A stretch of 64,000 nt of DNA from Hymenobacter tibetensis. Its GTDB lineage: Bacteria; Bacteroidota; Bacteroidia; Cytophagales; Hymenobacteraceae. The stretch is from NCBI RefSeq assembly GCF_022827545.1, contig NZ_CP094669.1, forward strand, positions 5,449,001 to 5,513,000, read 5' to 3'. Shown here piece by piece: positions 38,001 through 44,365 of this stretch. Under the pieces are notes generated by a model that did not search any database, was not told the origin of the DNA, and was given only the letters and a program-made list of their open reading frames with translations. Positions within the stretch are counted from its first letter, which is position 1; every line of letters starts with the position of its first letter. Position numbers and translations under genes: made by a program.

Positions 38001-39137
38001 ATGGTTACGCCCTTATTTTCTTATTGGGAGCATCAGACTTTCCTGCGAGGCTACGATGTGGTGATTGTAGGTGCTGGCCTAGTGGGTCTTACTGCCGCGC
38101 TGCATACGCGGCGGCTCCGGCCCCGCGCACGAGTGTTGGTGCTGGAGCGAGATGCACTGCCCAATGGCGCCAGCACCAAAAACGCTGGTTTCGCGTGCTT
38201 TGGCAGTGTCTCGGAATTGCTGGAGCAGGAAGCGCGCGGCGGCACAGACGCCTTGCTGCGCGTGGTGCAAGCTCGCTGGGAAGGCCTAGCAGAGCTGCGG
38301 CATCTCGTATCCGACGAAAGCCTACACTACCAGCCAACAGGTGGCTACGAGCTATTTCGGCCTGCCGAAGCACAACTGGCCCAGACTTGCCGCGACGCCA
38401 TTCCTTATTACAACGAGCTATTAGCTCCGGTCATCGGCACAAACGACATTTTCCGAGATGCAAGCAGTCAGCTTGCACGCCTGGGCTTTGTGGGGGTAGA
38501 TGTGATGTTGGAAAACAAAGCAGAAGGAGCCTTGCACACCGGACGAATGATGGAAGCATTGCTACGACAAGCATGGCAGACAGGCATCATGGTGCTACAT
38601 GGCTGCGCGGTGCAAGCCGTGGAGCCAGGCACTGGCTTAGTCCGTTTGCAAACAACACTGGGGGCCATTGAGGCAGAACAAGTGGTATTGGCTACTAATG
38701 CCTTCAGCCGTCAGTTCTTCCCCGACCTCGACCTACAACCCGGCCGCGGCCAGGTGCTTGTGACGGAGCCCATAGCAGGCCTGCACCTACCCGGCACGTT
38801 CCACTACGACAAGGGCTACTACTATTTCCGGCAGGTGGAAAATCGCATTTTGCTCGGGGGAGGGCGCCACCTCGATTTCGAGGCCGAAGCAACCACTGAA
38901 CCGGGCTTGACTCCGTTGGTGCAGCAGCAGCTAGAGCAATTATTGCACGACGTGATTCTGCCCGGCCGCGCCCTGCGCATCGACTACCGTTGGAGCGGAG
39001 TAATGGCGTTCGGTACGGCATTGGAGCCGTTCGTTGGTTTGCTGGCGCCCGGTGTATTCGGTGCGTTGCGCTGCAACGGCATGGGTGTAGCGCTTGGGGC
39101 GGGCGTTGGAAAACGAGTGGTAGAAATAATGATGTGA
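38001..39137 (+). CDS. FAD-dependent oxidoreductase (DAO family)
   Basis: 378 aa from the ATG at 38001. The FAD/NAD-type dinucleotide fold is at about 17-45 (YDVVIVGAGLVGLTAALH). A GASTKNAGFACFGS region follows (family block around the flavin), then ATNAFSR and, near the C-terminus, RWSGVMAFGTALEPFVG and GALRCNGMGVALGAGVGKRV. It belongs with DadA/ThiO/glycine-oxidase-like D-amino-acid oxidases that oxidise amines or hydroxy acids; the substrate is unknown. It sits alone before the thr operon. Confidence 0.9.
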   Translation: MVTPLFSYWEHQTFLRGYDVVIVGAGLVGLTAALHTRRLRPRARVLVLERDALPNGASTKNAGFACFGSVSELLEQEARGGTDALLRVVQARWEGLAELRHLVSDESLHYQPTGGYELFRPAEAQLAQTCRDAIPYYNELLAPVIGTNDIFRDASSQLARLGFVGVDVMLENKAEGALHTGRMMEALLRQAWQTGIMVLHGCAVQAVEPGTGLVRLQTTLGAIEAEQVVLATNAFSRQFFPDLDLQPGRGQVLVTEPIAGLHLPGTFHYDKGYYYFRQVENRILLGGGRHLDFEAEATTEPGLTPLVQQQLEQLLHDVILPGRALRIDYRWSGVMAFGTALEPFVGLLAPGVFGALRCNGMGVALGAGVGKRVVEIMM

Positions 39138-39263
39138 GACACCCGCAAGGCCGAGCCTTTTCTCTTTCTATTGCCCGGCAAAGTGCGTTTTACCGGCACA
39201 AATGTCAGCGTACTACTTGATGGAGTGCGGAGTAAGACGTTGTATTATCTGTTTTAAAAGATA

Positions 39264-39293
39264 TTGCGATTTCCAAAAAATGGTCTACTTTAC
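39264..39293 (+). promoter_or_regulatory. Candidate thr operon promoter
   Basis: TTG (39264-39266), 19 nt, then TACTTTAC (39286-39293), close to the Bacteroidota -7 element (two mismatches at the 3' end). It would start transcription about 10-15 nt before the leader peptide ATG. Confidence 0.4.
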
Positions 39294-39311
39294 GGCCAGA
39301 AGTACGCACTC

Positions 39312-39410
39312 ATGGCCTTTCCTTCGTTTCAATTTTCAACTATTTCCGCTCCCACCGGCGTCTTTATGACGACCGGCACAGGCATTATTACAGGTATTAC
39401 AACCCGCTAG
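39312..39410 (+). CDS. thrL: Threonine operon leader peptide
   Basis: 32 codons from ATG 39312 to TAG 39408-39410; an internal in-frame ATG at 39366 would give 14 codons. The last 14 residues read MTTGTGIITGITTR: six Thr and three Ile, the two amino acids whose shortage should induce threonine biosynthesis (threonine is the precursor of isoleucine). It plays the part of E. coli ThrL but is unrelated in sequence. Translation state of this ORF should decide the fold of the RNA that follows. Coding by function rather than by product; too short for ordinary gene finders. Confidence 0.8.
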   Translation: MAFPSFQFSTISAPTGVFMTTGTGIITGITTR

Positions 39411-39503
39411 ACGGGCTGCGCTACCTCTCTTTCCTTTGATGTTTCGCAGCCCGTCGCCGGCCGCTTCCTAACCAGAAGCCAAGCCGGTCCCGACGGGCTT
39501 TTT
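39410..39503 (+). promoter_or_regulatory. Three-segment transcription attenuator of thrABC
   Basis: Segment 1 GACGGGCTGCG (39410-39420) begins at the last base of the leader stop codon. Segment 2 CGCAGCCCGTC (39445-39455) is its perfect 11-bp complement. Segment 3 GACGGGCT (39492-39499) complements AGCCCGTC (39448-39455) of segment 2, with an inner GCCGGC/GCCGGT helix, and runs into T5. So 1:2 excludes 2:3, and 2:3 is an intrinsic terminator. A ribosome stalled on the Thr/Ile codons leaves segment 1 free (antitermination); one that reaches the stop codon covers it (termination). Confidence 0.8.
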
Positions 39504-39528
39504 CATGCCCACTCACCTCTTACTCTTT

Positions 39529-41973
39529 ATGCAGGTTCTGAAATTTGGTGGTTCTTCGGTGGCTACGGCACCCAATCTCCAGCGTGTGGCGCAGCTCGTG
39601 GAAGCGGCTGCCCAACAAACGCCCACAGTGGTAGTAGTGTCGGCGCTGGGCGGCACCACCGATGCGCTGATTGAAGCCGGCCGCCTCGCCGCCGCTGGCT
39701 CCGATGAGTACCGCTCTCGGCTCACCCGCTTGGAAGAGCGCCATCTAGAAGCCGTGCGCGGCCTGCTCCCTATTCCCGACCAAAGCGCCGTGCTGAGTTT
39801 GGTGAAAACGTATTGCAACGAGCTGGACAGCTTGTGTGACGGTATATTTTCACTGGGTGAGCTCTCGAACCGAACGTTGGACCGGCTGGTCAGCTTTGGG
39901 GAGTTGCTTTCGTCGCGGCTACTGGCCGCCTGCTTGAAAGCCCACGGCGTACCCCACGTCTGGCATGACAGCCGCACGCTGATTCGCACCAACTCGCAGC
40001 ACGGCTTTGCAGCCGTAGACACGGCCGTTACCAACCAGCAGATTCAGGACTTTGTGTTGGAGCATCCAAGTTCGGTGTATGTGGTGCCGGGCTTTATTGG
40101 CAGTGATGCGCAAGGCATCACCACTACCCTGGGCCGCGGCGGCTCCGACTACACGGCGGCCATCTTCGCGGGTGCCTTGACGGCCAATCAATTGGAAATC
40201 TGGACGGATGTGAGCGGTATGATGACGGCTGATCCGCGTCTCGTGACGCTGGCTCGCCCGATTCCGCGCATCTCGTATCAAGAGGCGATGGAACTGTCGC
40301 ACTTTGGAGCCAAGGTATTGTATCCGCCTACTATTCAGCCAGTCATGAGCCAGGGCATTCCGCTTTGGATCAAAAACACCTTTGCGCCCGAAGACGAAGG
40401 CACGCTTGTAGAAGTAAGTCCGCCAGCCAATCGGGACGTAGTACGGGGGCTGTCCAGTATCTCGCACCTGGCCTTGCTGAACCTGGAAGGCAGCGGCATG
40501 GTGGGCATACCGGGGTTTTCGCGGCGGCTGTTCGGCGCTTTAGCGGTGTTGCGCATCAACGTTATTCTTATCACCCAAAGCTCTTCCGAGCACTCTATCT
40601 GCGTGGCTGTGCAAGCTGCCGACGCGGGCGCAGCGCAAGCCGCCGTGGATGAAGAGTTCAGCACGGAAATAGCGGCCGGTAAAGTGGCACCGCTACGCTG
40701 CGAAATGGATTTGGCCATTGTGGCCCTGGTGGGCGAACAGATGCGCAACCACCCAGGCATCAGCGGACGGATGTTTGGAGCGCTTGGCCAGAACGGTGTC
40801 AACATCCGGGCTATTGCGCAGGGCTCATCGGAGCGCAACATATCGGTGGTGATACGGGCGGCGGATGTGCGCAAAGCCATCAACGTGCTTCATGAGGAGT
40901 TTTTCGAGGAGACCACCAAGCAAGTGAACCTGTTTGTGGCCGGCGTGGGCAACGTGGGCCGGAAACTACTTGAACAAATGGCGCGGCAGCAGCAGTGGTT
41001 ACGCGAGAAGCTACGTCTCAACTTGCGGGTAGTAGGGCTGGCCAACAGCCAGCGGTTTGTGCTAAGTGAAGACGGTATCGAGCTAAACGACTGGCAAATC
41101 GCCTTAGAGCAGGGGCAGCAACTGAATTTGAGTGAGTTAGTGGAGCAACTGAATGCCCGCAACCTGCGCAACACTGTGTTTGTGGACGTAACGGCCAGCG
41201 CCGACGTAGCTAAAATCTATGCGGCCCTGCTGGAAAAAAGTGTGGCGGTGGTGGCCTGCAACAAGGTAGCTTGCTCCTCAGAGTACGTAAACTACGCTCG
41301 TTTGAAGTCTTTGGCTCGAGAGTTCAACGCTGAGTTTCTGTTTGAAACCAACGTAGGCGCCGGCCTGCCCGTTATCGGCTCGCTCAACGATTTGCTGCGC
41401 AGTGGCGACCAGGTACACCGCATCGAGGCGGTGCTGTCGGGCACGCTCAACTTCGTGTTCAACCACTACGATGGCACTGTTCCTTTCGCCGATGTAGTGC
41501 GGCAGGCGCAAGCCGAAGGCTACACCGAGCCAGACCCACGCCTCGACTTGAGCGGCACCGACGTAGCCCGCAAAATCCTGATTTTGGCCCGCGAAGCCGG
41601 TCAGGAAATGGAACTGGCTGATATTCACAACGAATCTTTCCTACCGGCCTCCTGCCTGGAAGGCGATGTGGAAGCTTTCTATGAACAACTGGCGGTGCAC
41701 GAAGCCCACTTCCGCAGCCTCTTTGATGCCGCGGCTGCCCAAGGCCAACGCCTGAAGTTCGTGGCGCGGTATGCTGATGGGCAAGCCAGCGTGGGGCTGC
41801 AAGGCGTGGCGCCGGGCCACGACTTTTATGTGCTGCAAGGCAAGGACAACGCGGTGCTGTTCTTCACCAACCGCTACCCCGAGCAGCCCTTGGTAGTGAA
41901 AGGAGCCGGCGCAGGGGCTGATGTTACGGCCTCCGGTGTTTTTGCCGATGTCATCCGGGCGGCACGGGCATAG
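39529..41973 (+). CDS. thrA: Bifunctional aspartokinase/homoserine dehydrogenase I
   Basis: 814 aa from the ATG at 39529 ([12 protein letters not shown]); an ATG eight codons upstream sits right after the terminator T-run and is less likely. The aspartokinase domain (about 1-285) has KFGGSS and the GRGGSDYTA block; two ACT regulatory domains follow (about 310-460, with [14 protein letters not shown] and NVRAIAQ-like [14 protein letters not shown]). The homoserine dehydrogenase domain (about 465-814) starts with [15 protein letters not shown] and includes [15 protein letters not shown]. It performs the first and third steps of the pathway from aspartate to threonine and is expected to be feedback-inhibited by threonine. 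Confidence 0.96.
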
Positions 41974-42086: not shown

Positions 42087-43010
42087 ATGTCTGATTTCCT
42101 AACGCTGTACTCCCCGGCAACGGTGGCCAATGTGGTTTGCGGGTTCGATGTGCTCGGCTTTGCCCTGGAAGCACCCTATGATACCATGCACCTCCGCTTA
42201 AGAGACGAGCCGGGCGTAAGCATCGTGCACGAAGACGACTTCAACCTGCCCACGGAGCCGAAACGCAACGTGGCGGGGGCCGCCTTGCTGGCCTTGCTAC
42301 GGGCCGCCCCGGCTGGTACCGGCTTCGAGATGCGCATTCAGAAAGCTATTCTACCAGGTAGTGGCATTGGCAGCAGTGCGGCCAGTGCCGCCGGCGCCGT
42401 AGTGGGAGCCAACCAGTTGCTAGGCAACATCTTCACGAAAGAAGAGCTGGTACGCTTCGCCATGTTTGGGGAAGAAGTAGCATCGGGCGCGCAGCACGCC
42501 GACAACATTGCCCCGGCTATTTATGGTGGCGTTACGCTCATCCGCTCGGCCGAGCCGCTGGATGTCGTGCCGCTGTCGGCGCCGCCGCTACACGTAACGG
42601 TGGTACACCCGCAGATTGAGGTACGCACCGCCGATGCCCGCCAGATTCTCAAGCAGCAAGTCACGCTGAAAGCAGCCATCCGGCAGTGGGGCAATGTGGC
42701 CGGACTGGTAGCGGGCCTGTTGCAGTCAGATTACAAGCTGATTGGCCGCTCCCTAGAGGACGTTATCGTAGAGCCCGTACGCAGCATTCTGATTCCGGGG
42801 TTTGCGGCGGTGAAAGCCCGAAGCCTGGAAGCTGGCGCCTTGGGGGGAGGTATATCAGGTTCTGGCCCGTCCATTTTCATGCTCAGCGAAACCGAGGCCA
42901 CGGCGCAGGCTGTAGCGGCGGCCATGCGGGAAGTGTATCAGCAGCTAGGCGTTGACTTCCACATTCACGTCAGCACCATCAACTCCACCGGCGTACGCTT
43001 TGCCTCCTAG
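42087..43010 (+). CDS. thrB: Homoserine kinase
   Basis: 307 aa, a typical GHMP kinase length. The ATP loop PGSGIGSSAASAAGAVVGAN is at about 92-111, preceded by the N-terminal YSPATVANVVCGFDVLGFAL block and followed by the C-terminal glycine-rich GGGISGSGPSIFML. It phosphorylates homoserine in the cytoplasm for the threonine synthase encoded next. It lies 113 bp after thrA and 62 bp before thrC, so all three are one operon under the attenuator. Confidence 0.96.
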   Translation: MSDFLTLYSPATVANVVCGFDVLGFALEAPYDTMHLRLRDEPGVSIVHEDDFNLPTEPKRNVAGAALLALLRAAPAGTGFEMRIQKAILPGSGIGSSAASAAGAVVGANQLLGNIFTKEELVRFAMFGEEVASGAQHADNIAPAIYGGVTLIRSAEPLDVVPLSAPPLHVTVVHPQIEVRTADARQILKQQVTLKAAIRQWGNVAGLVAGLLQSDYKLIGRSLEDVIVEPVRSILIPGFAAVKARSLEAGALGGGISGSGPSIFMLSETEATAQAVAAAMREVYQQLGVDFHIHVSTINSTGVRFAS

Positions 43011-43072: not shown

Positions 43073-44365
43073 ATGCGCTACTATAGTCTCAATCAGCAAG
43101 CTCCACCCGTTGACTTCCAGGCCGCTAGCATTGCGGGCCAGGCCCCAGATGGTGGCCTCTACTTTCCCGAGCAGATTCCTAAGTTTTCCAAGGAATTGCT
43201 TCACAACCTGAACACCATCCCCCGCGCCGAACTAGCTTTCGAGGTGATTCGGCCATACGTCGGCGACGCTATTCCGGACGACGTCCTGCGCGGCATCTGC
43301 GCCGAAACTGTGGCGTTCGAATTTCCGCTAGTACCCGTCACTAGTCAGATAGCCGCCTTGGAGCTGTTTCATGGGCCTACGCTGGCGTTTAAGGACGTGG
43401 GGGCGCGGTTCATGAGCCGCTGCCTTGGCTACTTCTCTCGGCAGCAAACGGCCCCCGTTACGGTGCTGGTCGCTACATCCGGTGATACCGGAGGAGCCGT
43501 AGCCGACGGATTTTTGGGCGTGGAGGGGGTTGAGGTGGTTATCCTGTATCCGTCGGGCAAGGTCAGCCCGCTGCAAGAGTTACAGCTAACTACGCTCGGT
43601 CAGAACATCACGGCACTGGAAGTGCGCGGCAACTTCGACGACTGCCAGCGGCTGGTCAAGCAGGCGTTCCTTGACCCGCGCGTGACCAGCCACCGGCAGC
43701 TCACCTCGGCCAATTCTATTAATGTGGCCCGTTGGCTGCCCCAGCAGTTCTACTATTGCTTCGCGCTGCAACAATGGGAGCAGCCGGCACCACCGGTAGT
43801 AGCGGTACCAAGCGGCAACTTCGGCAATATTTGCGCGGGGCTGATGGCCCATGCCTCAGGCCTCCCCATTGGGCATTTTGTGGCGGCTTGCAATGCTAAT
43901 TCCGCTGTGGCGGACTACCTGCGGACCGGTACTTTCGAGGCGCGGCAGGCCATTGCCACCCTCTCCAATGCTATGGATGTCGGCAACCCCAGCAACTTCG
44001 GGCGCATTCTGGAGCTGTTCGGAAAGCGCCACGCAGACATCAGCCGCTTGGTGAGCGGAGCAGTGGTTTCCGACGCCGATACCACGGCAACCATCGGGCG
44101 GGTGCACCAGGAAACAGGGTACTTGCTCGATCCACACGGCGCGGTGGCCCTGTGGGCGCTAGAACAGTATCTGAGTGAGCACCCAACGGAGCACGGTATT
44201 TTCCTGGAAACAGCGCACCCAGTGAAGTTTCCGGAAGTAGTGGAACCCGTAATTGGCACCACGGTGCCGGTGCCGGTAGCTGTGCAGGGGCTCCTAAGCC
44301 GTACCAAGCAAAGCGTGCTGCTGGAACCTTCGTATGAGGCGTTGCAAGAGTTTTTGCTACGATAG
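43073..44365 (+). CDS. thrC: Threonine synthase
   Basis: 430 aa. PLP-binding lysine in HGPTLAFKDVGARFM (about K104), phosphate-binding ATSGDTGGAV and SGNFGNICAG loops, and the N-terminal MRYYSLNQQAPPVDFQAASI block typical of the bacterial (class II, E. coli ThrC-like) enzyme. It converts O-phosphohomoserine to threonine and phosphate. Last gene of the thr operon; the next gene starts 97 bp further on the same strand. Confidence 0.96.
   Translation: MRYYSLNQQAPPVDFQAASIAGQAPDGGLYFPEQIPKFSKELLHNLNTIPRAELAFEVIRPYVGDAIPDDVLRGICAETVAFEFPLVPVTSQIAALELFHGPTLAFKDVGARFMSRCLGYFSRQQTAPVTVLVATSGDTGGAVADGFLGVEGVEVVILYPSGKVSPLQELQLTTLGQNITALEVRGNFDDCQRLVKQAFLDPRVTSHRQLTSANSINVARWLPQQFYYCFALQQWEQPAPPVVAVPSGNFGNICAGLMAHASGLPIGHFVAACNANSAVADYLRTGTFEARQAIATLSNAMDVGNPSNFGRILELFGKRHADISRLVSGAVVSDADTTATIGRVHQETGYLLDPHGAVALWALEQYLSEHPTEHGIFLETAHPVKFPEVVEPVIGTTVPVPVAVQGLLSRTKQSVLLEPSYEALQEFLLR

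Follow-up and report, generated by a model that had tools for sequence, protein, structure and literature searches.

A probable ribosome-mediated attenuator upstream of thrABC in Hymenobacter tibetensis and a possible second leader type in its relatives

The Escherichia coli thrABC operon is controlled by the ThrL leader, which follows the same logic as the element described here and uses four RNA segments. In the enterobacterial thr leader, the 1:2 hairpin is formed with leader codons, and in the enterobacterial trp leader, the stop codon lies in the 1:2 loop. For the phylum considered here, the abstract of a 2004 paper by Vitreschak in FEMS Microbiol Lett reportedly mentions attenuators in Bacteroidetes/Chlorobi, and an earlier prediction of this kind of attenuator is therefore possible. 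The Bacteroid-trp RNA (RF01692) is presumably a trp leader-peptide attenuator. Table 1 of Weinberg 2010 (PMC2864571) places it in Bacteroidetes, with "y" for cis-reg and "n" for switch. Leader-peptide attenuation upstream of amino-acid operons is reported for Flavobacterium psychrophilum in the main text of PMC9723704, which describes conserved 5' elements, without Rfam hits, upstream of pheA, hisG, and others; the words "threonine" and "thrA" are absent from that main text. A literature search that covered few subscription papers returned neither a thr attenuator from Hymenobacter or the Chitinophagaceae nor any counterpart of the second-type element presented below.

Here, we focus on the thr operon in a window of 64,000 nucleotides, the whole stretch of Hymenobacter tibetensis DNA that was analyzed (contig NZ_CP094669.1, positions 5,449,001 to 5,513,000 of the forward strand). 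The genes thrA, thrB, and thrC lie in that order on the same strand, 3' of the leader (Table 1). The thrA start codon (ATG, MQVLKFGG) agrees with relatives and the mechanical open reading frame start at 39505 does not; by ThrA, the nearest named relatives are Hymenobacter sp. YC55 (93%) and H. norwichensis (90%). A gap of ~0.4 kb separates thrA from an upstream gene that ends at 39137 and that shows, in a family profile search, weak similarity to FAD-dependent oxidoreductases, below all cut-offs. By eye, a small GC hairpin and a T-rich stretch (39140-39175) lie right behind this gene and are perhaps its own terminator. On the basis of sequence, conservation, alternative pairings, and covariation, we consider it very probable that the thrABC leader is a ribosome-mediated transcription attenuator. 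This identification had been proposed from the letters of the window alone (hereafter, the sequence-only reading), and it is supported because leader, stop position, antiterminator, and terminator are conserved in 30 of 53 distinct Hymenobacter ThrA loci.

Table 1. Features of the thr locus, numbered from the first letter of the window.
Feature	Position	Strand	Description	Basis
Probable promoter	39264..39292	+	TTG (39264-39266), 19 nt, TACTTTA (39286-39292)	Read from sequence
Leader peptide ORF	39312..39410	+	32 codons, rich in Thr/Ile towards the 3' end; TAG at 39408-39410	Sequence and relatives
Segment A	39403..39406	+	CCCG in last Thr and Arg codons	Pairing analysis
Segment B	39410..39420	+	GACGGGCTGCG; segment 1 of the sequence-only reading	Sequence, folds, alignment
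Segment C	39445..39456	+	Segment 2 of the sequence-only reading (39445-39455, CGCAGCCCGTC); partner B (antiterminator) or D (terminator)	
Segment D and T run	39491..39503	+	Intrinsic terminator, -32.3 kcal/mol with C	
thrA	39529..41973	+	Bifunctional aspartate kinase/homoserine dehydrogenase I	NF006959, 1023 bits (cut-off 726)
thrB	42087..43010	+	Homoserine kinase	NF002288 and TIGR00191 above cut-off
thrC	43073..44365	+	Threonine synthase	TIGR00260 above cut-off

The leader peptide reads MAFPSFQFSTISAPTGVFMTTGTGIITGITTR. Direct reading confirms what had been singled out in it, namely 32 codons with six Thr and three Ile among the last 14 residues, and a TAG directly against a pairing segment; specifically, the stop codon overlaps segment B by one base. 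Across 30 Hymenobacter leaders, the last 14 codons hold a mean of 7.5 Thr plus Ile in frame versus 0.13 and 0.17 in the other frames, and, since the loci were chosen partly by Thr content, these values give the size of the bias and are no independent test. The peptide had been called new, which holds for its sequence and only for its sequence: several further families, within both the order and the class, also have Thr-rich leaders 5' of thrA. Upstream, the TTG and TACTTTA elements form what we take to resemble a Bacteroidota -33/-7 promoter. By eye, a TACTTT or TAGCTT block begins 25-31 nt 5' of the leader ATG in 30 of 30 distinct Hymenobacter leaders; a stricter scripted promoter pattern counted only 3 of the 30.

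Two mutually exclusive hairpins can form in the leader RNA, one of which is an intrinsic terminator. The coordinates originally given for the three segments (39410-39420, 39445-39455, 39492-39499) are exact, and B pairs with C, as claimed, in a perfect 11-bp helix. Segment D spans 39491-39499 and includes the third of the original segments, GACGGGCT. Its pairing with C was likewise foreseen, with sizes that need correction: in place of 8 bp, an inner 6-bp helix, and T5, there is an outer helix of 9 bp (39448-39456 with 39491-39499) followed by 5-bp inner and 5-bp apical helices, and the last T of the segment is paired, such that four unpaired T (39500-39503) remain of the run T39499-T39503. 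The fold of 39405-39504 consists of B:C and a second hairpin (-44.5 kcal/mol), and the fold without segment B is the C:D terminator (-32.3 kcal/mol). These folds have z values of -4.6 and -5.0, respectively, and 0 of 200 shuffles were as good in each case. Segment A, within the last codons, is a fourth pairing element that the sequence-only reading overlooked. Its partner can be CGGG at 39412-39415, which closes a hairpin over the stop codon, or, when the leader is antiterminated, 39494-39497.

The notion is that transcription would start near 39300, from the putative promoter, and that the 32-codon leader would be translated. When Thr-tRNA and Ile-tRNA are ample, the ribosome would reach the stop codon and cover segment B, C would pair with D, and transcription would end at the T run, near 39503. 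Under Thr or Ile shortage, the ribosome would stall on the upstream Thr/Ile codons and B, left free, would pair with C; D would then form no terminator, and thrABC would be transcribed. The A:B hairpin around the stop codon would be the counterpart of the 1:2 protector/pause hairpin of enterobacterial attenuators. The most likely regulatory response, as predicted from sequence, is that the thr genes are read only when threonine or isoleucine is short. Two other amino-acid operons in the same genome, those of a trpE homologue and of hisG, also have leaders, which counts for the attenuator reading.

A ribosome covers ~15 nt of mRNA beyond the first P-site base. With this footprint, a ribosome at the stop codon reaches ~39420 and covers all of B. 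A ribosome stalled at Thr31 (39402) reaches ~39414, half of B; at Thr30 (39399), ~39411, hardly any of B; and at Thr27 (39390), ~39402, leaving B free. Therefore, most Thr codons and all Ile codons should antiterminate when starved. That stalls at early Thr codons leave segment 1 free had been anticipated; the accompanying idea that the last two Thr codons would mask it has to be narrowed to the last one, which does so in part.

To follow the element in relatives, 110 ThrA loci were fetched, of which 16 were second copies from the same genomes and were removed, leaving 94 (53 Hymenobacter, 41 others). Three further Hymenobacter regions (L191-L193), two of them the same contigs as L007 and L078, stand outside the 53. 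ThrA was present in 51 of 61 Hymenobacter genomes, and the 30 of these that were taken as loci were read. The other 10 show no bifunctional ThrA at E ≤ 1e-100; in addition, genome G010 has ThrA as two overlapping pieces and genome G031 has one TAG inside ThrA. An exact-word search for the three repeated segments missed most relatives and misread some strands, and a frame-based search on oriented loci was used. The leaders of L054 and L073 were chance open reading frames, removed before counting.

A Thr/Ile leader with a terminator precedes thrA in 30 of the 53 distinct Hymenobacter loci; H. roseosalivarius (L007) shares the element. All 30 leaders start with ATG, have 27-32 codons, and carry Thr codons at the end; all 30 are followed, within 130 nt of the stop, by a hairpin of -12 kcal/mol or lower before a T run. 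The position of the stop codon relative to segment B is kept in relatives. The sequence-only reading had proposed to look for conservation of the Thr/Ile codons rather than of the leader sequence. In these leaders, the Thr codons and the stop context are kept, the N-terminal peptide drifts, and length varies by whole codons. Three loci (L018, L104, L106) have a different C with a matching D (GAGCAGC with GCTGCTT). The remaining 23 Hymenobacter loci (L019, L021, L023, L026, and 19 more) have no leader before thrA, which we count against the attenuator reading. On the ThrA tree, these loci form two groups, and the label needs 2 changes. The opposite strand upstream of many leaderless thrA genes reads like what is presumably the start of a divergent release-factor gene (prfA); therefore, the leader was probably lost when the operon moved.

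Outside Hymenobacter, a Thr leader is present in 35 of 41 ThrA loci, including Chitinophagaceae (Niastella, Puia, Sediminibacterium, Segetibacter, Terrimonas) and MAGs labelled only Bacteroidetes. When 80 more upstream regions from the order and class were screened, 21 scored at least 5 for a Thr leader, two of them (L132, L170) probably spurious, and 59 scored lower; L118, L119, L121, and L186 scored below 5 and are still read as leader candidates. In four loci of family f61 (L175, L177, L179, L186), the antiterminator arm seems, by eye, to lie inside the last leader codons.

Helices were compared in an alignment of 29 distinct Hymenobacter sequences. For B:C, 93.1% of cells are paired, 0 of 500 shuffles were as high, and 7 cells are changed on both sides. 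The covariation expected across segments 1-3 is thus found for B:C and is not found for C:D, for which 83.8% of cells are paired in this alignment and 477 of 500 shuffles were as high, owing in part to three out-of-register rows, each of which carries a C and a matching D of its own. RNAalifold on alignment A1 predicts the B:C helix alone.

The stop-codon hairpin tells against the proposal of a shorter, three-segment version of the ThrL plan. Specifically, the last leader codons, mostly ACA ACC CGN, can form a hairpin that has the stop codon in its loop and in which the last two codons pair with the 5' half of B, the original segment 1. In the same 29 sequences, 89.0% of A:B cells are paired, compared with 22-54% in slid controls, 1 of 500 shuffles was as high, and five cells are changed on both sides, all C-G to G-C swaps at the inner pair. 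Locus by locus, the Hymenobacter A:B hairpin has 3-5 bp (only 3 bp in L103 and in the L018 group) and outdoes its shuffles at p ≤ 0.05 in 14 of 30; in the window, it has 4 bp and -4.4 kcal/mol (p = 0.087). The stop hairpin outside Hymenobacter has 5-9 bp and reaches p ≤ 0.05 in 35 of 35, duplicates not counted. MAFFT shifts this hairpin by one base in the mixed alignment, for which RNAalifold gives only 3 pairs there, and per-locus stems and a covariance model were used instead. Pairing of A with B around the stop can restore the classic four-segment plan, with a weak first hairpin, as far as sequence comparison goes.

In a true three-segment switch, segment 1 would pair with segment 2 by default, nothing would protect it, and an untranslated leader would always read through. 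This we regard as unlikely, notwithstanding the 11 bp of B:C against the 4 bp of A:B and the four f61 loci, which have strong terminators without a clear stop hairpin, since A:B is kept in relatives with the swaps described above. The folding energies speak on both sides. Each fold state was enforced on the 29 sequences, with L018, L104, and L106 left out of a set of 26 (their terminator columns are out of register). With A barred from D, the terminated fold is lower in 19 of 26 and the antiterminated fold in 7 (19 and 10 of all 29), a result that disfavors the three-segment switch; with A free to pair with D, the antiterminated fold is lower in 23 of 26 and the terminated fold in 3 (26 and 3 of all 29). 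In the window, which on this point sides with the three-segment switch, the antiterminated fold is ahead by 1.5 kcal/mol with A unpaired or by 4.4 kcal/mol with A paired with D. In these models, the energies are close; an untranslated leader may read through, and species may differ.

Two other explanations set leader translation aside. The terminator could be constitutive and the leader an untranslated chance open reading frame, with partial readthrough giving a basal level and no amino acid sensed. The terminator is indeed strong in all 30 leaders, and leader translation is itself a prediction; nonetheless, the frame bias in Thr plus Ile (7.5 of 14 codons), the kept ATG, the whole-codon length changes, and the covariation of B:C render a constitutive terminator very unlikely. 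A structured leader before a biosynthetic operon could also suggest a metabolite- or tRNA-binding riboswitch, either a threonine-sensing RNA or a T-box, before thrA. We assign this only a slight chance: at gathering score, Rfam matches in the whole window are two tRNAs only, with no riboswitch or T-box; matches in 39150-39600 are at chance level (RybB, 18.5 bits; bxd_5, 14.9 bits); and the only helix that RNAalifold recovers is B:C. Ribosome-mediated attenuation is by far the best of these explanations.

The potential for a different arrangement emerged from the relatives. The 35 Chitinophagaceae-like thr leaders (among L024-L083) lie ~70-150 nt before thrA and have a stop-codon hairpin stronger than that in Hymenobacter. 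In the 130 nt that follow the stop, 0 of the 35 have a hairpin of -12 kcal/mol or lower before a T run, and 5 of the 35 reach -8 kcal/mol. They have instead a conserved CATATYRYC-N3-5-GGG, mostly 5-9 nt behind the stop hairpin. The second-type layout would be a hairpin of the last codons around the stop, ~7 nt, CATATYRYC-N3-5-GGG, and then the operon. We speculate, at somewhat less than an even chance, that Bacteroidota possess their own second, undescribed attenuator type that needs no intrinsic terminator and is not tied to one amino acid (thr in Chitinophagaceae-like genomes and in some members of the window's own order, his in Hymenobacter), with the types swapped between operons. Its action could be transcriptional, translational, or factor-bound; candidate mechanisms are Rho-dependent termination next to the leader stop and binding of an RNA-binding factor.

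A covariance model trained on 11 second-type thr loci recovered the other 24. Weak matches (E 0.003-0.04) are L116 and L124, from the same order as Hymenobacter, and L166; a handful of matches at E 0.18-1 were antisense, chance, or doubtful and were set aside. In the model alignment (38 rows, 34 distinct), which is fitted to its own structure and leans towards it, 92.7% of stem cells are paired and 0 of 500 shuffles were as high. Five stem cells are changed on both sides; in four, Thr ACC becomes Ile ATC and the 3' arm follows. Model R2 has a match at E ≤ 0.02 in 68 of 395 genomes of the class. Among the 16 best R2 loci, 15 were read (L204 omitted), of which six (the five best and L201) lie before thrA and nine are chance-like. 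Against the second type, three loci outside the 35 have hairpins before T-rich stretches despite a stop hairpin (L130 and L131, -18 and -17 kcal/mol; L116, -11.4 kcal/mol), and L176 (genome G206, family f56) lacks a stop hairpin and carries a strong terminator of the ordinary kind. Rfam gave one chance match at E ≤ 1 across 11 thr loci, nine of the second type.

Three further ideas about the element were dropped. A hairpin beginning at the GGG (H2) was convincing by eye in several his loci and, in an ungapped test, reached p ≤ 0.05 in only 6 of the 35 thr rows and 1 of the 15 his rows. By eye, neither base pairing between CATAT and the ATATG where thrA begins nor a repeat of CATAT near the N-terminus of the leader is universal.

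The element also occurs before his operons. In the window's own genome, a His-rich leader lies upstream of hisG (L228:1290-1345, G000:C1 ~2846430-2846485). A perfect hairpin of 8 bp, formed by its last codons, encloses the stop, and 7 nt behind it comes CATATTGCC-CCGT-TGGG. In Hymenobacter, the second-type his element is found in 14 of 30 his loci read and in one more from a pattern scan, which makes 15 with the locus of the window's own genome included. The other 16 of the 30 have a different sequence behind the stop. Two more his arrangements were seen, ...HHHL-TAG and ...HHH(L/R)W..C-TAG (L312, L313, L316-L320, and L323 versus L314, L327-L330, and L333). When the 60 nt downstream were shuffled by dinucleotides, the combination of spacing and motif arose in 27 of 20,400 trials; since the rows of any one group are related, the independent events are the groups, and hisG and ilvD were the two operons under inspection when the element was met. 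For ilvD in the window's genome, no leader was seen, and the gene lies closely behind another open frame and so is uninformative.

No consistent terminator follows the Hymenobacter his element: 2 of 14 loci have none, and the rest differ in sequence and position, with hairpins of -5.5 to -25.6 kcal/mol before T-rich stretches. Such loci may harbor a terminator that has gone unrecognised. The thr-trained model does not recover the his elements, and Rfam gave no match at gathering score in 7 his loci, four of the second type. A scan of six genomes with the element pattern produced 90 matches versus 47 for a reversed control pattern; among 82 places read (three known thr places omitted), a strong stop hairpin occurs only at the his loci of the window's genome and of G002. 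By eye, six his leaders of family f56, from Chitinophagaceae (L341, L343, L344, L351, L356, L360), have ordinary T-run terminators. The two types thus seem, from these sequences, to sit on opposite operons, with Hymenobacter thr classic and his second type, and Chitinophagaceae thr mostly second type and his classic.

The trpE homologue in the window's genome (L380, G000:C1 ~2195900-2196083) is preceded by a Trp-Trp-Trp leader, a GC hairpin, and a T run, which together make a probable trp attenuator. By eye, 12 of 12 trpE homologues examined, all of which score below the family's curated cut-off, have a Trp-Trp-Trp leader with a hairpin and a T run behind it. Among 59 genomes of the order, the RF01692 model is above cut-off in 2; it has no match in the 4 Hymenobacter among the 59, in the window's genome, or in the window. 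Thus, trpE homologues in Hymenobacter have their own WWW leader and terminator although RF01692 has no match there.

These analyses extend threonine leader-peptide attenuation to a phylum in which, by the literature found, it is hardly described. The relatives suggest two interchangeable solutions before the same operons, one of which lacks the strong terminator called for by textbook attenuation. The window element shares with the ThrL leader (RF00506) its Thr/Ile codons before thrABC and the choice between antiterminator and terminator. It differs in its A:B hairpin of only 4 bp and in its Bacteroidota-type promoter, and the RF00506 Thr_leader covariance model finds nothing in 39150-39600 at E values up to 10; the leader peptide itself we take to be unlike ThrL. 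Bacteroid-trp, by its entry in Weinberg 2010, is a cis-regulatory RNA candidate from the phylum of the window element and, unlike that element, is named for trp. The attenuation put forward for F. psychrophilum, in the text of PMC9723704, involves the same phylum and the same proposed mechanism. The kind of switch is already known; the leader is new in sequence and its logic is the same. The second type is a lead worth following, and the window element is a sound example of known attenuation.
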